Shown: one piece after another, positions 142 through 9,326 of the stretch
Layout: every line of letters starts with the position of its first letter
Position numbering within the stretch: position 1 is the first letter of the stretch
NCBI GenBank assembly: GCA_026984935.1
Contig: JALSRD010000092.1
Location: forward strand, 1 to 36,924
Length of the DNA stretch: 36,924 nt
Direction of reading: 5' to 3'
From: Desulfobacterales bacterium
GTDB taxonomy: Bacteria; Desulfobacterota; Desulfobacteria; Desulfobacterales; JALSRD01
Notes under the pieces: generated by a model
What the model was told of the DNA's origin: nothing
What the model saw: the letters and a program-made list of their open reading frames with translations, nothing else
Database searches by the model: none
Translations under genes and position numbers: made by a program

Positions 142-220
142 AGCCGCCATGCTTAGCGCCGACCCGACTTTTTCAGGAGATTTCAGCAGCCACCCATGGC
201 AAAGGACGCAAAACGCCTAT

Positions 221-2641
221 ATGCGGCGTGGTCTGAAATTGCTATTCTGGGCGACCCTGATTCTGTATTTAGCGCCGCCGGGACCGATTTGTGTTGCCGC
301 GACGTTGTCCCGGGGTTATGCAGTCACACTGGCCAGAGGTGGAAAATACCATGAGGCAATTGCTATGCTGGAGACGTTGCATCGGCGCCAGCCTGGCAAT
401 CAAAAAGTCACAGACGATCTGATTGTGGTCTACTGTTGGAACGCGCAGTATGCTGAGGCCGCTTCGCTGTTTGAGCAGCGAAATGCAGATAACTATCCGG
501 TTTATGTGCAGAAAGCCATAATGAAGGCCTACCGCAACATGGGTAAGCCGAATTTATCATTGGCCATCGTCAACCGTCTCCTGAAAATCCGGCCTCAATC
601 CAGCGATCTGCTGTTCTTCAAAGGCATGTTGTTTGTCGACGAACGACAGTTGGGATCCGCCCGGGCGATACTCGCTCAGCTACTTTCTGAAACAGGAAGG
701 GACAGCCGCTACTACCGGTTGTCGGGTTACTTGCAAACAGCAGAGGAGAACTGGATAGCCGCGTTAGCGGATTATCAGCATTTGAGCAGGCTGTTGCCTG
801 ATGATCGGGAGGCCGTTCACGAGCGTTTTGCCGCCCTCCAGAATGTGCGTGCTCAAGAGGCCGCCGGAAATGTTCTGGCCGGGCATCAGCAGTCTTTTTC
901 GGCGTATGACCGTGCGCAACATTTTTTGAACCAAGCAGCCGAAAAATTGCGTTGGGCCACGGACGCATCCCGAGATTTTAATGAAACCAGGCGCCTTGCA
1001 AAACAGGCATTAGCCCTGCAGATCAAAGCCCTGGATCTTGTGGGGATGAAATCGGCTCCGGGAAATTGGCCAGTGCCCGTTTTTAACGATCTGTTGGTCA
1101 CTCTGCGTGTTTTGCGACAGACAGACAAGGTGCAGGTTCTTTACCGGCAACTGATCAAACAAGAGGAGGTGCCGGACTATGCCAAGCAGGCTGTGGCAGG
1201 TGCAATGCTTGCCGACCATCAACCGGACAAGGCCTGCGAATTGTATCAACAGGTGCTGAAAAAAGAGCCGGGTAACTATCAGGCGCAGATCGGACTGTTT
1301 TATTCCTTTGTTGAAAAAGAGGATTTTGACAGCGCCTACCGGCTGATCGATAATCTGAAAGAACATGAGCCCCTATTCCAGATAACCAAAGAGCAGAAAA
1401 ATCATTTTTACAATGAGCGTCTTTTAGATCTCAACGTATACGCTATCCTGGCCCGTTACTATGGAGATCAGTTGGAGACCGCCTGGTCACGCATCGACGA
1501 ACTCGTCCGGAATGCCCCGGCCAATAACTGGTTGCTTGAGGTCCGGGGGCAGATTGAAAATGCCCGGGAGTGGTATCGGCGGGCATACGGTGATTTTCAC
1601 TATGCATCCCTGTTGTCTCCGGACAGCCTGGATGCCCGGACTGGTGAGGCATCAAGTCTGATTGACCTTAAACGGTATCGGCAGGCTAGACCGCTGCTAC
1701 AATCCATGCGACAGAAATTTCCGGATGAATATTCCACTCGGAAAGTTGAAAAAAAATGGCGATTCAGCAGGAAACCCGAGTACTGGGCGGACATCACCTA
1801 TTCGAATTCATCGGGACCCGAGCTAAACGGTGATGGCGTTTTAGCCTCGGCAGAGGTCCTGTCTGCTCCCATCAATGACAATTTTTACCTTGATGCCTTC
1901 TATCGCTACGCTTGGAATGAGATCATAGAGGGAGAAGAAACCTTTCAACGTTATTCGCTGGGCCTGAATTATCAGCTCCTGGAATGGCAGCTGCTAGGCC
2001 GGATTACATACAACGATTCAGACCTGGACGAAATCGGCGGCAGTGCTACTGCCATCTGGACTCCAGATGATTTCTGGCGTTTCAGCTTCGGTGGTGAGCG
2101 TTTTTCGGTAGATACGCCGTTGCGCGCACTGTTTCACGGAATTCGCGCCGATGCTGTATTTGCCAGTCTGAACTATCGCTGGAGTGAACAGAGGGATCTG
2201 TCTTTTGGCATTCGGGGCGCATTTTTTACGGACGACAATAACCGCATTGAGGGGACCGCTGTGTTACGCCAGCGACTCATAGACGTGCCCCACATTGATC
2301 TTGACGGCCGCGTGGAAGCCTATGCATCTGCCAACAGCCGCCGGGATGCACCCTACTTCAATCCGGAGCATGATTTAAGCCTACTGGGTGCATTACACCT
2401 CGATCATGTTTATTTCCGGCATTATGACCATCTGTTAAGCCAGCAGATCGATGCCGGTTATGGATTTTACGATCAGAGTGCCTTTGTGCCCCGCTGGATC
2501 GGACATATCCGTTACGAGCAGCGGTATCGCCTAGATCCTTGGATGGAGGTGTTGGCTGGAGTTGAATTCGGTCAGAATGTTTATGACGGCCATGCAGAAC
2601 CCTATCGATTGGTCCGGTTTATGATCAATGGGAAATTTTAA
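221..2641 (+). CDS. pgaA: PgaA-type outer-membrane PNAG export porin
   Basis: Predicted exporter of (partly deacetylated) poly-beta-1,6-GlcNAc across the outer membrane. From ATG 221 the product has 806 residues, almost the E. coli PgaA length (807 from memory). It has a signal peptide (RRG followed by a hydrophobic run ending VAA), then TPR-like helical repeats to about residue 520 that would bind polymer and PgaB in the periplasm. The last ~290 residues are rich in alternating aromatic/polar strands and end in GKF with a terminal Phe, as expected for a 16-strand barrel. The frame is open from ATG 149, but that ATG lacks a Shine-Dalgarno and would bury the signal peptide; AAAGGA at 201-206 precedes 221, a little far. 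First gene of the pga operon. Confidence 0.85.
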   Translation: MRRGLKLLFWATLILYLAPPGPICVAATLSRGYAVTLARGGKYHEAIAMLETLHRRQPGNQKVTDDLIVVYCWNAQYAEAASLFEQRNADNYPVYVQKAIMKAYRNMGKPNLSLAIVNRLLKIRPQSSDLLFFKGMLFVDERQLGSARAILAQLLSETGRDSRYYRLSGYLQTAEENWIAALADYQHLSRLLPDDREAVHERFAALQNVRAQEAAGNVLAGHQQSFSAYDRAQHFLNQAAEKLRWATDASRDFNETRRLAKQALALQIKALDLVGMKSAPGNWPVPVFNDLLVTLRVLRQTDKVQVLYRQLIKQEEVPDYAKQAVAGAMLADHQPDKACELYQQVLKKEPGNYQAQIGLFYSFVEKEDFDSAYRLIDNLKEHEPLFQITKEQKNHFYNERLLDLNVYAILARYYGDQLETAWSRIDELVRNAPANNWLLEVRGQIENAREWYRRAYGDFHYASLLSPDSLDARTGEASSLIDLKRYRQARPLLQSMRQKFPDEYSTRKVEKKWRFSRKPEYWADITYSNSSGPELNGDGVLASAEVLSAPINDNFYLDAFYRYAWNEIIEGEETFQRYSLGLNYQLLEWQLLGRITYNDSDLDEIGGSATAIWTPDDFWRFSFGGERFSVDTPLRALFHGIRADAVFASLNYRWSEQRDLSFGIRGAFFTDDNNRIEGTAVLRQRLIDVPHIDLDGRVEAYASANSRRDAPYFNPEHDLSLLGALHLDHVYFRHYDHLLSQQIDAGYGFYDQSAFVPRWIGHIRYEQRYRLDPWMEVLAGVEFGQNVYDGHAEPYRLVRFMINGKF

Positions 2642-4439
2642 GTTCGAAATGCCGAAACGCTTTTTGGCCCGGGCGGTGGCGGGGTGGCTGCTTTGCATGT
2701 GGTTCTCCCTTCCCGCATTGGCCGGGGGAGAGTTCCTGGCAATTGCCTATCATGACGTGGTGGATCACCGCAGTGAACTGACTTTTGACGCCGTAACATT
2801 GGACCATCTGATCGACCATCTGGAATGGCTTAAAAGCAGTGGTTATCACCCGATTTCTATTGATGACTTGGAAGCCGCCCAAGCCGGTGTGCGGGTACTA
2901 CCGGACCGGGCGGTTCTGCTCTGTTGGGACGACGGCTATACCAGTTTCTATACCCGTGTATTGCCGCTTCTAAAAGCCTATCATTTCCCGGCGGTGCTGG
3001 CTTTAGTGGGCAGCTGGATGCAACCCGGCCCCAATGAGATGGTGCAATATGGCGACCGGCGGGTAGCCCGTAAAAAATTTATGACTTGGCAGCAGGTGCG
3101 GGAAGCGGCTGCCTCCGGATTGGTGGAAATAGCAAGTCATTCCTATAACTTGCATACAACTGTTTTGGCAGATGCCGCAGGTGACAAACTGCCGGCCGCT
3201 GTCGCACATCAGTTCTACCCTGAAAGTGAGACCTACGAAACAGACGAACAGTTCCGCCGGCGTATCCGTGAAGATTTACGGGCCAACAGCAACCTGATCC
3301 GCCAGCATCTTGGTTTTCGGCCACGCGTGCTGGTCTGGCCTTTTGGACGATACAACGAGGCTGCCCGAGAAATTGCGGTCAAAACCGGTCTGCCCATAAC
3401 ACTGACGCTAGATCCGGTGCCGGGTGACATCCACCATCTGGAGGCCATTGGTCGTGTCTATCCGACGCTCAACCCGGACCTGATGACATTTCGCTCCTAT
3501 CTGGATCTGCACATTCGTCCACCGGTAACCCATTTTTTCCGGATCGACGGTAAAAACCTGCTTGAACCGGCGAAAGGCGGCGAAAGAAACTTCGGCATCT
3601 TCCTCGATCGGGTGAAAGACCTGAATCCGAATATGGTGATTATAGATCCGATGGTAAAAGTCGCCGGTGGGTACAGAGCCCTCTTCATGAATCATCGCTT
3701 TCCTGTCGCTCAGGACCGATTGATGCGGTATTGCTGGCATACGGACAAACGGGCGGGGACGGAAGTTTTTCTCTGGCTCTCTCCAGACCTTTTTACAGCG
3801 GGTCCTGCAGAAAGCAGCGCTGACGTCATCCGTTTTTTTTCGGATATGGGAAAATCAGCTCCCGGCGCAGGCCTGGTTGTAAACGCCTCGGGCCTCTTGC
3901 CCGCCTTGATGCAAATGTCTGGGGCAAACCAAAAGCCGGAAACCGGCATCAGCTTCTGGAATCCCGACAGGCGGCGTCAGGCGAGACAAGTTCTGGTCAG
4001 ATCAGGACAGTTCTTGAAAGCCGCGGAGATTTTTCGGGACCTGGAGGCTTTTCAACAGTGGCAACCCTTCCAGGAAGTCGGTCTGGTGGTCAACGCGGCG
4101 CAGTTTCGGCGGTTGGCAACGAGACAGGTCGCGATGTTGCTGCGGTTTTTTGATTTTCTGGTCATTCGGGCGGGTCGATGCAGCGCGGATACTGTGAAAC
4201 GCATGTTCGGGCCTCAGATTAAAAAACTGCACGCCAGCAATTACCTGCAAAAATGTACTTTCCTGTTTTCTGTGCAGGATCGGCGCAGCTCCTTGGCCCG
4301 GGAGCTGCGCCGGCTGGCAAACCTGGATATTATCAATTGGGGATATGCGTTTGACCATTTTCTGCACGGGAACCCGAATCCCGAGGATATCCGGCCGTTG
4401 CTCTCAAAGCGTGTTTTTCCATACCCGCTGCACCGCTGA
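2628..4439 (+). CDS. pgaB: PgaB-type PNAG N-deacetylase with a degenerate C-terminal GH153-like domain
   Basis: 603 residues. After a signal peptide (about residues 9-32) comes a CE4 deacetylase domain (about 35-295). YHDV (41-44), WDDGY with D101/D102, and IASHS with H171 and H176 give the Asp-His-His metal site and catalytic base of PgaB; VWPFG (236-240) is also conserved. Residues ~300-603 follow the layout of the PgaB hydrolase domain (IDGKN, a later LVVN, a final WGYAFDHFLHGN), but the acidic catalytic segments are gone: IDPMVK where QAFADPDG is expected and LVVNAAQF where FHDD is expected. It should deacetylate PNAG in the periplasm before export. The start overlaps pgaA by 14 bases; ATG 2649 is an alternative. 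Unlike E. coli PgaB, no lipobox is evident; the active hydrolase appears to be in the next gene. Confidence 0.85.
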   Translation: MGNFKFEMPKRFLARAVAGWLLCMWFSLPALAGGEFLAIAYHDVVDHRSELTFDAVTLDHLIDHLEWLKSSGYHPISIDDLEAAQAGVRVLPDRAVLLCWDDGYTSFYTRVLPLLKAYHFPAVLALVGSWMQPGPNEMVQYGDRRVARKKFMTWQQVREAAASGLVEIASHSYNLHTTVLADAAGDKLPAAVAHQFYPESETYETDEQFRRRIREDLRANSNLIRQHLGFRPRVLVWPFGRYNEAAREIAVKTGLPITLTLDPVPGDIHHLEAIGRVYPTLNPDLMTFRSYLDLHIRPPVTHFFRIDGKNLLEPAKGGERNFGIFLDRVKDLNPNMVIIDPMVKVAGGYRALFMNHRFPVAQDRLMRYCWHTDKRAGTEVFLWLSPDLFTAGPAESSADVIRFFSDMGKSAPGAGLVVNASGLLPALMQMSGANQKPETGISFWNPDRRRQARQVLVRSGQFLKAAEIFRDLEAFQQWQPFQEVGLVVNAAQFRRLATRQVAMLLRFFDFLVIRAGRCSADTVKRMFGPQIKKLHASNYLQKCTFLFSVQDRRSSLARELRRLANLDIINWGYAFDHFLHGNPNPEDIRPLLSKRVFPYPLHR

Positions 4440-4451
4440 TACAGGTTTTTT

Positions 4452-5678
4452 ATGTTACCAGGCCAAAATAGAGTTCGTGCCCATCGCCCGGCCGTGTGGA
4501 ATTTTTTGCCGCTTCTTATCATGATCATGGCGCTGACTTTGCCTCAGGGGTGTGCGTTGACGGACTTCACAGGGCTTTTGGATATGCGTGCAAAGGAGTT
4601 GCCGCCTTTACGGGGTGTTCAGGTGGATCTCGACTATGTCTTTGATCCGGATCCCGCACAGCAGGCGGCCAATCTTGATCTGTTGATCCGACGGGTCCGG
4701 CAGTTAGGGATCGATACCGTATTTTTGCAGGCATTCGCCGATCCGGATGGTAACGGCGTTGCCGAGAGCCTTTATTTCCCTAGCCGGTTCATGCCCTTGC
4801 GGGAAGATCTTTTTGCACCTGCCGCCAGACGATTACGGCAAAGTGGAGTTGCCGTCTATGGTTGGCTGCCGATGCTGGCTTTTAAACCACCTGCTGGGGA
4901 CGATGGGTTGTATGTCCTTCGAAGCGGCAAGTCAGGAGCGGCTTTCCGATCTTTACAGGCGCGTCGCCGGCTTTCACCCTTTAGCGTAAAGTCTAGAAGA
5001 ATTATTGAAGGTATCTACCGTGATTTTGCGCGCAGGACGGTGGTGGATGGCATTTTGTTCCACGATGACGGGGTGTTGTCCGATTTTGAAGATGCCTCCG
5101 ATGCAGCATTGCAGCAATACGCAGAGGCCGGATTCCCCCAGGACATTGGGACGATACGGAACAGTCGGGAAACCAACCGCAAGTGGAGCCGCTATAAGAC
5201 CTTGTATTTAATTAAATTTTCCCTGTCACTGCTCGATATTGTGCGCCGCTACCATCCTGCGGTGCGTTCGGTCAGAAATCTTTTTGCCAATCCGGTTCTT
5301 GAGCCTGAAAGTGAGCGGTGGTTTGCCCAGTCATTGCCACTTTTTATGGGGGCCTATGACTATACCGCTCTTTTGGCCATGCCGTTTATGGAACAGGCGG
5401 CGGCACCGGACCGATGGTTGGAGCGATTGTCCTGGGCCGCCCTTGGCCAAGTCAAGAACAGCAATCGTATCATTTTTGAACTCCAGGCCAAGAACTGGTG
5501 CACCGGCAGACCCGTTGCAGCAGCAACACTAAAACATCAGATTGGGCTTCTTGCACAAATGGGGGGAACTTCTTTTGCCTATTATCCTGATGATTTCCAT
5601 AAAAACTTGCCTCCGGCAGACATGATCAGAACTTGCCTGTCAAACCCGGTAGCCTGTACCGGCCGAGATGCGACATGA
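4452..5678 (+). CDS. Stand-alone PgaB C-terminal (GH153-type) glycoside hydrolase, probable lipoprotein
   Basis: 408 residues matching only the C-terminal half of PgaB, the domain that cleaves partly deacetylated PNAG. Visible family motifs are VQVDLDYVFDPD (56-67), FLQAFADPDGNG (91-102), RLSPF (173-177), VDGILFHDDGVLSDFED (198-214) with the acidic pair D205/D206, RNLFANPV (275-282), PESERWFAQ (285-293), FELQAKNW (342-349) and YYPDDF (377-382). A hydrophobic N-terminus ends in LPQGC with Cys34, an imperfect lipobox, suggesting lipid anchoring. It starts 12 bases after the deacetylase gene and overlaps pgaC by ATGA. In E. coli both activities sit in one polypeptide; here they are separate genes of one operon. 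The assignment as PgaB C-domain is strong; the lipoprotein call is weaker. Confidence 0.85.
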   Translation: MLPGQNRVRAHRPAVWNFLPLLIMIMALTLPQGCALTDFTGLLDMRAKELPPLRGVQVDLDYVFDPDPAQQAANLDLLIRRVRQLGIDTVFLQAFADPDGNGVAESLYFPSRFMPLREDLFAPAARRLRQSGVAVYGWLPMLAFKPPAGDDGLYVLRSGKSGAAFRSLQARRRLSPFSVKSRRIIEGIYRDFARRTVVDGILFHDDGVLSDFEDASDAALQQYAEAGFPQDIGTIRNSRETNRKWSRYKTLYLIKFSLSLLDIVRRYHPAVRSVRNLFANPVLEPESERWFAQSLPLFMGAYDYTALLAMPFMEQAAAPDRWLERLSWAALGQVKNSNRIIFELQAKNWCTGRPVAAATLKHQIGLLAQMGGTSFAYYPDDFHKNLPPADMIRTCLSNPVACTGRDAT

Positions 5679-6943
5679 TTGCAATATTGAGAGCTTTGCC
5701 TGACGTTTTTTTTCAGTTTTCTTTTTTCTATCCGTTGTTTATGGCCTATCTGTGGATGAGTGGCGCCCTGATCTATTTCTTTCATTGGGAAAAGTCTTTC
5801 GGCGACAAAATAAGCGCTTTTCCCACGCTCGAGGCTTGGCCGGGTGTATCTATCCTGGTTCCTTGCCATAATGAGGGTGCTCACATAATTGAAACCATCC
5901 GCTGGCTTCAGAAGGTTAATTATCCGGACTATGAAATTATCGCCATTAACGATGGCAGCAGTGATGATACCGGTAAAATATTGGACCAGCTGGCAGGTGA
6001 AGTCGAGCAGTTGCGGGTGATCCATCTGGAAGCCAACCAGGGCAAAGCCCGCGGGCTTACGCTGGCCACAATTTCAGCCAAAAATGAATTCCTGGTTTGT
6101 ATTGATGGGGACGTGGTGCTTGATCCATGGGCTGTGCATTGGATGGTCTGGCATATGGCCACCAGCCCCAGGGTGGGAGCAGTCACGGGAAATCCGAGAA
6201 TCCGCAACCGCTCGAGTCTGCTGGGCCGAGTACAGGTGGGCGAGTTCTCGTCGATCATCGGCCTGATCAAACGCGCCCAACGGGTGTATGGGCGTGTATT
6301 TACCGTGTCAGGCGCTGTATCGGCATTCCGCAGGTCTGCGTTGCAACAAGTGGGATTCTGGGATACAGATATGGTTACCGAAGATATCGCCATCAGTTGG
6401 AAGCTGCAGCTCAAATTCTGGGACATTCGCTATGAACCCCATGCCTTGTGTTGGTTGCTGATGCCGGAAACGTTTAGGGGCCTCTGGCGCCAGCGATTGC
6501 GGTGGGCCCAAGGTGGGATGGAAGTCTTTTTCCGGTATTTCACCAGGTTGCGGGACTGGAAGAAACGGCGGATGGCAATGGTCCTGGCAGAATACATAAC
6601 CAGTGTCATCTGGGCGTACAGCATGATCGCGATTATTCTACTGTGGGCAATTGGGAAATTTGTCAGTCTTCCTCCATCTCTGAAGGTCAGAACGCTACTT
6701 CCCGGTTGGACGGGTGTGCTGCTCGCTATCACCTGCCTGATTCAATTTGGTGTCAGTATGGCCATCGACTCCAGATATGATCGGGATATGGGCAAAAATT
6801 ATTTCTGGATCATCTGGTATCCAGTGGTATTTTGGTTAATTAATGTTTTTACCATCGCTGTCGGAGTGCCAAAAGCACTGTTGAAACCGCGCGGACAGCG
6901 TGCGGTCTGGGCAAGCCCGGACCGTGGCCTCCAAGACGAGTGA
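5675..6943 (+). CDS. pgaC: PNAG synthase, family 2 glycosyltransferase PgaC
   Basis: Processive inner-membrane synthase that polymerises UDP-GlcNAc into PNAG and passes it through the membrane with PgaD. From ATG 5675 (ATGA overlap with the preceding stop) it has 422 residues. Family 2 motifs are in order: NDG (D93), DGD (144-146), a long block near TGNPRIR and EFSSIIGLIKR (190-200), VTEDIAISWKL with TED (235-237), and QRLRWAQGG (273-281). There are N-terminal hydrophobic segments (8-36) and several C-terminal ones (about 300-400). The frame is open from 5633, but that start would overlap the upstream gene by 46 bases. The C-terminal QRAVWASPDRG resembles E. coli PgaC. Confident by motif. Confidence 0.93.
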   Translation: MIAILRALPDVFFQFSFFYPLFMAYLWMSGALIYFFHWEKSFGDKISAFPTLEAWPGVSILVPCHNEGAHIIETIRWLQKVNYPDYEIIAINDGSSDDTGKILDQLAGEVEQLRVIHLEANQGKARGLTLATISAKNEFLVCIDGDVVLDPWAVHWMVWHMATSPRVGAVTGNPRIRNRSSLLGRVQVGEFSSIIGLIKRAQRVYGRVFTVSGAVSAFRRSALQQVGFWDTDMVTEDIAISWKLQLKFWDIRYEPHALCWLLMPETFRGLWRQRLRWAQGGMEVFFRYFTRLRDWKKRRMAMVLAEYITSVIWAYSMIAIILLWAIGKFVSLPPSLKVRTLLPGWTGVLLAITCLIQFGVSMAIDSRYDRDMGKNYFWIIWYPVVFWLINVFTIAVGVPKALLKPRGQRAVWASPDRGLQDE

Positions 6944-6956
6944 GCGTGCAGTGGCA

Positions 6957-7469
6957 ATGCATTTAGATCAAGACATTGACTGTGTCACCGCAGCAGGTGA
7001 GTCGCTCTATCCGGAATGTTTGATCATCAACCGGCCGGATCTTAAAAGCATGCCTCTGGTGCTTGGTGAGGGGTTGATTACGCTGTTGTTCTGGGGGTTT
7101 TGGTTTTACCTCTGGCTCCCCATCATCAGCCTGCTGGCATGGATCGTTGGATTCAAGGTGATGTACCGGCAACTGATCTTGTTGGGTGGATTCGACGGCT
7201 TTATACGGCAGCTGAATATATTTACCTTCGGTGTCGTGCTAGTTTCGGGAGCTATTGCAGCCTGGAGTTTTTACAATCTCAAGCGTTACGGCACATACCG
7301 GCGAAGACAGCATGTCCAAAAAACAGACATGCACCGACTGGCCGCGGCCCTTAACCTTTCCAACCGGGAACTGGTGGACATTCAAAACGCCAAACGGGTT
7401 GTTTTTTCGTTCAACGAGGATGACTCGATAAAAGAGATTCACCCGCTGCCTTCTCAGCAAGCAGAGTGA
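6957..7469 (+). CDS. pgaD: PgaD-type PNAG synthesis accessory membrane protein
   Basis: Small inner-membrane partner of PgaC; in E. coli the PgaC/PgaD complex is the c-di-GMP-responsive synthase. From ATG 6957 the product has 170 residues, somewhat longer than E. coli PgaD (about 137). Two hydrophobic segments (about 38-66 and 91-112) are followed by YNLKRYG, comparable to the YNKLRF after TM2 of E. coli PgaD, and a cytoplasmic tail with a long helix (LAAALNLSNRELVDIQ). It starts 14 bases after pgaC. An open frame from 6900 would overlap pgaC by 44 bases and add no hydrophobic sequence. The call rests mainly on position and topology, since PgaD sequences diverge. Confidence 0.78.
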   Translation: MHLDQDIDCVTAAGESLYPECLIINRPDLKSMPLVLGEGLITLLFWGFWFYLWLPIISLLAWIVGFKVMYRQLILLGGFDGFIRQLNIFTFGVVLVSGAIAAWSFYNLKRYGTYRRRQHVQKTDMHRLAAALNLSNRELVDIQNAKRVVFSFNEDDSIKEIHPLPSQQAE

Positions 7470-7505: not shown

Positions 7506-8501
7506 TTAGTTGTCGCCGTCAATCAGGTTGCCCAGAGATCCGAGGATGGAGCCTTCGCCCACGCTGCCGCCTTTCTGGGGGGCGGCCTGCAGCATGCGGC
7601 CCGCCAGGCGCGAAAAGGGCAGCGACTGCAGCCAGATGCGGCCGGGGCCCCTGAGCTCGGCAAAGAAGAGCCCCTCGCCGCCGAACAGGGCCGTCTTGAT
7701 GTTGCCGGCCTGGCGGATGTCGAACGTAACGCTTTTTTCCAACGCGGCCACGCAGCCGGTATCCACGTGCAGGATTTCACCGGCACCCAGTTCGCGTTCG
7801 ACGATGGTGCCGCCGGCATGCAGGAACACCAACCCGTTGCCCTCTAATTTTTGCATGATGAAGCCCTCGCCGCCGAAGAGCCCGGTGAGGATCTTGCGCT
7901 GCAGGTAGATGCCGATGGAAACGCCCTTGGCGGCGCACAAAAAGCTGTCCTTCTGGCAGATCAGGGTGCCGCCGACGTCGCTGAGCCTGACCGGAATGAT
8001 GTTTCCCGGATAGGGCGCACCGAAAGCCACGTGGGCCTTGCCCTGCCCGGTATGAGTAAAGACCGTGATAAAGAGGCTCTCGCCGGTGAGCAGGCGCTTG
8101 CCGGCCCCCAGCAGCTTGTCCATGAACCCGCCGCCGCCTGTGCCGGAGCCGTCGCCGAACAGGGTCTGCATGCTGACCGTGCTCTCCTTGTACATCATGG
8201 CACCGGCTTCGGAAATGGCGCTTTCACCGGGGTCGAGTTCGACTTCCACGAACTGCATTTCCTTGCCCAGGATTTTAAAGTCGATTTCATCGCTCCGGCG
8301 TGCTGCCGCCGCAGGCGGAGGGGGCACCGGGCGTGTCGGTGCCGAAGGGCTCAATTCGCTGACCTGGCGAATGGGCAGCCAGTCGGCAAACCCCTCGCGC
8401 CAGGCGAAGCCTTCGGGATCAGACGCTGCCCGGGAAATTGCCTGGGCTGTGTCCAACGGGCCGATCTGTTCGCCACCGTAGCTTAAAAACCACTGGGCCA
8501 T
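7506..8501 (-). CDS. GYF_2 domain plus AIM24/TIGR00266-family protein
   Basis: 331 residues from ATG 8501, which sits five bases after AAGGAGG; upstream in-frame codons lack a ribosome site. Residues 4-50 (WFLSYGGEQIGPLD, then WREGFADWLPIRQV) are a GYF_2 domain. A proline-rich linker (PTRPVPPPP, 55-63) leads to a glycine-rich AIM24/DUF124 beta domain (about 72-310), with repeated short strands such as GLFGGEG and ALFGGEGLFFAEL. Proteins of this family are of unknown biochemical role; they are soluble and mostly beta. The gene is tail to tail with pgaD (36-base gap) and 219 bases downstream of a TerB-like gene on the same strand, possibly co-transcribed. Confidence 0.8.
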   Translation of the reverse strand: MAQWFLSYGGEQIGPLDTAQAISRAASDPEGFAWREGFADWLPIRQVSELSPSAPTRPVPPPPAAAARRSDEIDFKILGKEMQFVEVELDPGESAISEAGAMMYKESTVSMQTLFGDGSGTGGGGFMDKLLGAGKRLLTGESLFITVFTHTGQGKAHVAFGAPYPGNIIPVRLSDVGGTLICQKDSFLCAAKGVSIGIYLQRKILTGLFGGEGFIMQKLEGNGLVFLHAGGTIVERELGAGEILHVDTGCVAALEKSVTFDIRQAGNIKTALFGGEGLFFAELRGPGRIWLQSLPFSRLAGRMLQAAPQKGGSVGEGSILGSLGNLIDGDN

Positions 8502-8720
8502 CATGTCCTCCTTGCTGTGTGGGTTACGGGACTGCAGGTGGTCGGATTCGGGAACACGGCGACGCACCGAGGCCGTCAAGGCGCCCGTCCGGCCAGGCGC
8601 GCAAACTTCGGCATATCGGGAAGATGTCGCGGTTTTCGCAACACGGCCAGATGGGATGCATGGGCGGATGAATGCCATCGTATTGATGCATCGGGCCACT
8701 TGGCAGCCGGAAGCAACGCT

Positions 8721-9326
8721 TCAACCTCTCAGCCGGGTGCTGATCCGCTGGCGTGTCGCATCATCGATGCCGAGCCGCTGCGCCAGCCGTTGCAGGTATT
8801 CCCGTTCGGTTTGGGTGTCGACGGTGATGGCTGCCAGCGAGGCGGCAAAAACCTGTTCGGCCATCTGCGGCGTTTTCACTTGGCTGGCGATGGACTCGAT
8901 GTCGCCGGGAGTCAGCAGTTCCCGTGTGATAAAAGCCTGTTCCTCGGTACTCAGGTCCAGGCTTTTCAGCCGTCCGAGAATTCGGCTGCGTTCATCGGAA
9001 TCGATATTGCCGTCGGCATTGGCGGCCGCAATCATGGCGCGGATCAGCAGTACGGCGTCCTCGGCAGCGGTAGCCGAGGACAGGCCGCCATCCGTTTTTG
9101 TCGCCCCGCCGGGTGGCGGGGGGGGCACTGCGGCAGCTGAAGATGGTGCCGGTGGCGGGGGCGGCGTGGCCGACGGTATAGATGGACGGGAAGAACCCTG
9201 CTGATGCATGTAGTGTTCGGCAGCCTCCAGGGCCACGCCCAACAGGCCCAGGCCAAGACCGCTTCTGCCGGCCAGACCGCCGCGGCCCAAAAGAAGCCCG
9301 CCAAGCAGTTTTTCGGGGTTGATCAT
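8721..9326 (-). CDS. DUF533/TerB-like protein with proline-rich linker
   Basis: 201 residues; GGGAGG lies seven bases before ATG 9326. The N-terminus is glycine/leucine-rich (LLGGLLLGRGGLAG..., 7-33), as in YebE/DUF533 proteins, and probably membrane-associating. It is followed by a linker with two runs of five prolines (55-59 and 68-72). Residues ~88-200 form an all-helical TerB-like domain: AMIAAANADGNIDSDERSRI is the typical acidic helix pair, and the domain ends in LAQRLGIDDATRQ. Function is unknown in this family. Its neighbour encodes a GYF_2 domain, a fold that in other proteins binds proline-rich peptides. Confidence 0.75.
   Translation of the reverse strand: MINPEKLLGGLLLGRGGLAGRSGLGLGLLGVALEAAEHYMHQQGSSRPSIPSATPPPPPAPSSAAAVPPPPPGGATKTDGGLSSATAAEDAVLLIRAMIAAANADGNIDSDERSRILGRLKSLDLSTEEQAFITRELLTPGDIESIASQVKTPQMAEQVFAASLAAITVDTQTEREYLQRLAQRLGIDDATRQRISTRLRG

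Follow-up and report, generated by a model that had tools for sequence, protein, structure and literature searches.

PNAG, poly-beta-1,6-GlcNAc, is a biofilm sugar. Why the machines that produce it carry a hydrolase is an openly unresolved question, and in E. coli the two activities of PgaB are hard to separate because its deacetylase domain does not work when the hydrolase domain is missing (PMC5933820). The window described here, meaning the whole stretch of 36,924 nucleotides that was analysed, contains a pga operon with two adjacent genes of the pgaB family, and it raises the question of how the work of one PgaB is shared between them. The answer we consider likely is that PgaB's two catalytic jobs fall to two proteins, with a dead C-terminal domain serving as scaffold for the deacetylase on the first.

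A complete pga operon with two pgaB genes

The operon, pgaA-pgaB1-pgaB2-pgaC-pgaD, is complete and compact, occupying positions 149-7469 of the plus strand. PgaA, a TPR outer-membrane export porin (149..2641), scores 573 bits to TIGR03939 (cut-off 366.65) and 182.6 bits to PgaA_barrel. It is followed by pgaB1 (2628..4439, 603 residues), pgaB2 (4452..5678, 408 residues), pgaC for the PNAG synthase (5675..6943; TIGR03937, 610.9 bits) and pgaD (6957..7469; 88.2 bits to the PgaD Pfam model, cut-off 27, and 72.8 bits to TIGR03940, cut-off 31.45). PgaA, PgaB, PgaC and PgaD thus all exceed curated cut-offs, encoded on one strand. Overlaps or gaps between neighbors never exceed 14 bp: pgaA runs 14 bp into pgaB1, the ATG of pgaC at 5675 overlaps the stop of pgaB2 by 4 bp (ATGA), and the ATG of pgaD is at 6957. 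The genome, 3.9 Mb and 99% complete, has no other GH153 locus and no other PgaC above cut-off. Rfam found no RNA feature, and scans for promoters and terminators gave scores not clearly above those of shuffled sequence.

PgaB1 has an intact deacetylase domain and a decayed GH153 domain

PgaB1 scores 416.9 bits to the NCBIfam PgaB model, TIGR03938 (cut-off 321.9). Its first part, residues 1-298 (2628..3521), consists of a signal peptide and a CE4 deacetylase domain (Polysacc_deac_1, 77 bits), the latter 40% identical to the N-domain of E. coli PgaB (3vus; Foldseek TM 0.9) and sharing 46-47% identity with the intact PgaBs closest to it in sequence within the phylum. An earlier note on this DNA had recognized the deacetylase site by D101/D102, H171 and H176; these residues, along with H42, match E. 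coli H55, D114, D115, H184 and H189 as catalytic and metal residues, and all five are invariant across 10 related sequences of the PgaB1 clade.

The remaining 305 residues (299-603; 3522..4439) score 18.5 bits to the Pfam GHL13/GH153 model, missing its cut-off of 27 and matching through residues 318-384. A far stronger relationship emerges from profile-profile comparison by hhalign, with a query built from C-domains of the PgaB1 clade only and a target built from intact GH153 domains, which aligned 293 columns at a probability of 99% and an E-value of 3.7e-18; E-values for controls that were column-shuffled, reversed or unrelated lay at 0.06-0.66. AlphaFold2 modeled PgaB1 with mean pLDDT 89 and pTM 0.86, the C-domain showing eight barrel strands, from a non-circular input alignment of decayed sequences that held no intact GH153. 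A previous model (pLDDT 73) was set aside as partly circular, because its alignment included intact PgaBs. The retained model superposes on E. coli PgaB (4f9d) over 498 residues spanning both domains (Z 36.3, rmsd 3.1), and its C-domain matches 4p7o with a Z of 25.4, versus 16.5 or less for other barrels. By profile comparison and by fold, then, the C-domain of PgaB1 is GH153-derived over its whole length, bearing out the layout that the earlier note had seen in it.

The active site is gone. Functional tests on Bordetella PgaB cover D326, D328, D364, H473, D474 and E585, and the mutations of Little et al. establish the importance of D326, D328, H473, D474 and E585, D474 being the likely catalytic acid (PMC5933820). 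The six corresponding positions of PgaB1 hold D, K, K, N, A, and a gap or A. Across eight sequences from the PgaB1 clade, the equivalent of D474 is variously A, S, Y, K, H, R, Q and A; not one retains D328, D364, H473 or E585, and four retain D326. An R-L-S-P loop is deleted in C-domains of the clade as well. The acidic motifs reported missing on first reading are indeed absent: almost all of the groove residues tested have been lost, as has the catalytic Asp. Because D474, D328, D364 and E585 each score zero of eight, we do not file the domain as a GH153 enzyme. It is predicted from these losses to lack hydrolysis.

The earlier note had suggested that the inert copy may serve as a polymer-binding module. 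The barrel is kept, the published full-length enzyme binds PNAG through its C-domain, and some residues at the barrel end (Y573, D576, P583) are retained. However, neither the GlcN-directed Asp cluster nor the E585 site (D328, D364, E585) survives in any of the eight clade members compared, and near-invariant GH153 positions next to the tested groove residues persist half as often as the rest (26 of 152 alignment cells, 17%, versus 126 of 384, 33%, elsewhere). Preferential loss of groove residues disfavors binding through the old groove, and we regard a polymer-binding role as unlikely. A structural or docking role for the sake of the deacetylase fits better.

Nor does the domain appear to have been recruited to new chemistry at a different site, an idea to which we give very little credence. 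The clade has invariant residues of its own in this domain, some of them replacements relative to canonical GH153. But the acids that never vary, E319, D363, E483, D509 and D576, are mostly shared with intact GH153, and the rest, judging from alignment and secondary structure, would lie before a strand and off the catalytic face.

The decayed domain is nevertheless under selection. By the NG86 method, dN/dS in the two usable pairs is 0.28 and 0.16 for the decayed domain, 0.17 and 0.11 for the deacetylase, and 0.32 and 0.23 for pgaB2, values that are approximate because dS is about 0.6-0.7 in both pairs. Purifying selection at 0.16-0.28, a level similar to that of the intact hydrolase, means that the decayed domain still does something. 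The constraint is moderate, since the domain evolves faster than the deacetylase, with identities of 36-82% against 62-87% and the lower figure in every pair compared.

PgaB2 is a stand-alone GH153 protein

The product of pgaB2 (4452..5678) matches GHL13 from position 1 to 324 of 324 with 380.9 bits, and finds the Bordetella GH153 structure 6au1 by phmmer with an E-value of 5.9e-92. Every tested residue is present (D, D, D, H, D, E), which by sequence makes it a member of GH153 and upholds the view that the second gene encodes a complete hydrolase, and with it the proposal of a PgaB split over two genes, a deacetylase with decayed C-domain adjoining an intact hydrolase. PgaB2 also earns 375.7 bits from the NCBIfam model for PgaB deacetylase (cut-off 321.9), entirely through its hydrolase part. 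Automatic annotation of such a locus is misleading because both genes pass that cut-off, although PgaB2 has no deacetylase domain.

PgaB2 begins with a hydrophobic signal stretch ending in LPQGC. The lipid anchor suggested for it in the earlier note is likely for several of its relatives, which carry LQAC, VSGC, VGGC or ATAC, with a lipobox in at least four homologs; for the window protein itself we are unsure, because LPQGC is borderline and does not fit a strict lipobox.

The gene pair recurs in related genomes

Scanning the genome collection turned up this pair of genes in two Desulfobulbales metagenome-assembled genomes, L067 and L068, and searches of their families added G487, G563, G564, G568 and G569. 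The pair occurs in eight genomes in total, six of which have both genes intact on one contig; contig ends break it in G447 (L067) and G568. Genome G490, where the locus is cut near a contig end, is labeled as split in the tree and is not among the eight. In G497 a decayed PgaB is present and pgaB2 is absent, with no second PgaB-family match in the genome. Other strong GH153 matches in 395 genomes of the phylum are long open reading frames of fused length, 645-757 residues. The family of G447 yielded no fused PgaB; the family of G448 has one in each of three genomes (G479, G483, G484), placed elsewhere in the tree. Relatives of PgaB2 are absent from 57 other genomes, nearly all of them from the window's order. 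A query with the C-domain by itself found no relatives among the genome contigs, and query P0001 found nothing in viral contigs and, in plasmids, only PgaB homologs, each below 60% identity.

A sequence in a Burkholderiales metagenome-assembled genome (L146) does resemble a frameshifted PgaB, so one might read the window locus as an ordinary PgaB broken by assembly error or frameshift. PgaB1, however, bears a full-length C-domain of its own besides PgaB2, and the pair is found in eight genomes with matching phylogenies. Because eight genomes share it, assembly error is excluded for practical purposes; the split is shared by relatives.

Erosion of the GH153 site extends beyond this group. Several PgaBs have partly lost the site in genomes with no other GH153 above threshold, and in the loci checked they adjoin PgaA and PgaC equivalogs. 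We had labeled as inert all PgaBs without the FHDD motif, and dropped the label for the Variovorax type, whose domains cannot be so called because an Asp is kept at the D474 position (7/7 compared). Two Campylobacterales have Asn there, a change that inactivates the Bordetella enzyme. One of these two has a gene for a putative GHL10/DUF4015 hydrolase after its pga operon.

Origin and transfer of the pair

In the deacetylase tree, ten rows (the eight genomes with the pair, plus G490 and G497, the latter without pgaB2) form one clade, supported at 99/95. Outside it lies Verrucomicrobia L069, with a decayed C-domain and no other GH153 (98/93), and farther out (97/95) lie PgaBs from Variovorax, Reyranella, Lysobacter and Polaromonas with eroded C-domains, together with an intact fused PgaB from Neoroseomonas. 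The stand-alone hydrolases also form one clade (100/99), which repeats the main division among the deacetylases, the window and G487 versus the rest. Since deacetylases and hydrolases each make one well-supported clade, the likeliest history is a single origin of the pair, whose two genes travel as a unit.

For pgaB2 itself, the earlier note proposed duplication of the PgaB1 C-domain followed by division of labor, and such duplication is possible. The row nearest the stand-alone clade is from Vibrio proteolyticus (96/88). That placement would suit horizontal transfer of a stand-alone hydrolase after the fused domain had already decayed, as would the occurrence of decayed C-domains without GH153 both among the closest relatives (Verrucomicrobia L069) and in further lineages. 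Still, the Vibrio sister is a long branch, and a grouping of the stand-alone hydrolases with Neoroseomonas, the only intact GH153 near the PgaB1 clade, was neither found nor rejected (AU test, p 0.084). We are close to evenly poised on transfer, leaning slightly against it.

The operon as a whole was probably acquired horizontally by the window genome from Desulfobulbales. An RpoB tree, read without one mis-extracted row (G001, branch length 10), does not put the window genome among the Desulfobulbales rows, yet the pga genes of that genome fall within the Desulfobulbales clade. This conflict makes such acquisition likely, as do the 57 genomes without PgaB2 relatives and the difference in GC content, 52.4% for the pga operon and 59.6% in the remainder of the window.

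A proposed division of labor

In the arrangement we favor, PgaB1 would deacetylate PNAG in the periplasm. Its C-domain would act as a pseudo-glycosidase, a GH153 barrel packed against its neighbor as in the two-domain E. coli protein, without catalytic or groove residues, and retained as a scaffold that the CE4 domain needs, perhaps also for docking to the TPR domain of PgaA. PgaB2, a separately exported and independently placed GH153 enzyme, would then cut the deacetylated polymer; in published work hydrolysis comes after deacetylation (PMC5933820). We infer that PgaB1 is active and shares its polymer substrate with PgaB2. The scaffold reading draws on the retained fold and two-domain packing, on purifying selection, and on the requirement of E. 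coli PgaB for its C-domain in order to deacetylate (PMC5933820), that one protein supplying by analogy the need for a scaffold. Also in its favor, HmsF with alanine in place of its D364 and D474 counterparts supported normal biofilm (PMC5933820).

The same paper allows a different emphasis. In E. coli PgaB binds the TPR domain of PgaA, and the interaction appears critical (PMC5933820), so the decayed domain might be mainly a part for docking or export, binding the PgaA TPR or guiding the chain, with a deacetylase that works without it. The domain's own invariant residues, some differing from canonical GH153, would agree, but the E. coli deacetylase domain is inactive when isolated, a sign that a scaffold is needed too. 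We hold this to be a possible reading, though somewhat doubtful.

Returning to the scaffold, a bolder version holds that it is an obligate pseudoenzyme, its hydrolase on a separate protein, and that relatives such as G497 and L069 have dropped GH153 hydrolysis; we put this at a little short of even. From genomes that combine a decayed domain with the absence of GH153, some lineages are predicted to manage without hydrolysis. If GH153 has indeed been dropped in G497 and Verrucomicrobia L069, hydrolysis would be inessential for PNAG export. The natural separation would make pgaB2 removable without touching the deacetylase, with PgaB1 offering a hydrolase-dead scaffold shaped by evolution, and the split arrangement occurs in a group of sulfur-cycle bacteria.

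Comparison with known systems

Losses, duplications and fusions of pgaB are reported in a survey of pga operons (PMC7112194), the portion of which available to us describes no split PgaB. In a literature search that left most subscription journals uncovered, neither a split PgaB nor a pga operon with a stand-alone GH153 came to light. For Pel, deacetylase and hydrolase are already known to be encoded by separate genes, and for PNAG we found no report. In Bacillus cereus the deacetylase PelA is encoded in the operon and a glycoside hydrolase by a separate gene, BCE_5582 (PMC13254593); the polymer and the families are different, although both are synthase-dependent exopolysaccharide systems. Gram-positive IcaB resembles PgaB1 as a PNAG deacetylase without hydrolase activity, but differs in having no GH153-derived domain whatever (PMC7112194), where PgaB1 keeps one. 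PgaBs of Variovorax, Polaromonas, Lysobacter and Campylobacterales share an eroded C-domain, and the Variovorax-type deacetylases fall near the PgaB1 clade (97/95), but unlike the window these have no separate GH153. The closest parallel is the CE4-GH153 fusion of PgaB, BpsB and HmsF (4f9d, 6au1), to which the window corresponds in its operon, its deacetylase site and the two-domain fold of PgaB1 (Z 36), and whose GH153 site PgaB2 shares. It departs from them in that the GH153 domain of PgaB1 is, by sequence, catalytically dead, and the predicted active hydrolase is the product of a separate gene.

Origin of the pga operon

The pga operon of the window (149-7469) has a GC content of 52.4%, against 59.6% for the remainder of the window, and in phylogenetic trees its genes nest inside the Desulfobulbales, where RpoB does not. 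On these two grounds, the operon was likely acquired horizontally. The region directly after it (7509-9326) encodes, both on the minus strand, an AIM24-family protein with a GYF_2 domain and an adjoining DUF533 protein.

Deacetylase motif of the split clade

Across the split clade, including the deacetylase region of the window (2628-3521), the deacetylase motif TFDDG is replaced by CWDDG, with Ala for Gly in one row. Its Cys and Trp occur in 10 of 10 split-clade rows and in none of the other sequences compared.

PgaB and hydrolase variants at other loci

At L146 (4438-7879), a locus from a Burkholderiales MAG, two overlapping frames make up a broken PgaB whose FHDD motif is intact; its appearance suggests a frameshift rather than the split arrangement of the window. 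Two Campylobacterales loci, L096 (3188-7831) and L123, have Asn at the catalytic Asp position of PgaB. Downstream of pgaC, L096 carries pgaD and then a gene for a putative glycosyl hydrolase of the GHL10/DUF4015 type, which may represent a second route to a hydrolase on its own gene. A Reyranella locus (L073, 9596-10777) carries a decayed PgaB and, downstream, a GHL10/DUF4015 gene.

PgaBs of the Variovorax, Polaromonas and Lysobacter type (L091, L112, L116, L119, L120, L084 and L102) have an eroded GH153 groove yet keep Asp at the position of D474, the probable catalytic acid in Bordetella PgaB numbering. Their genomes encode no GH153 above threshold besides the eroded PgaB, the specificity of which is possibly altered.
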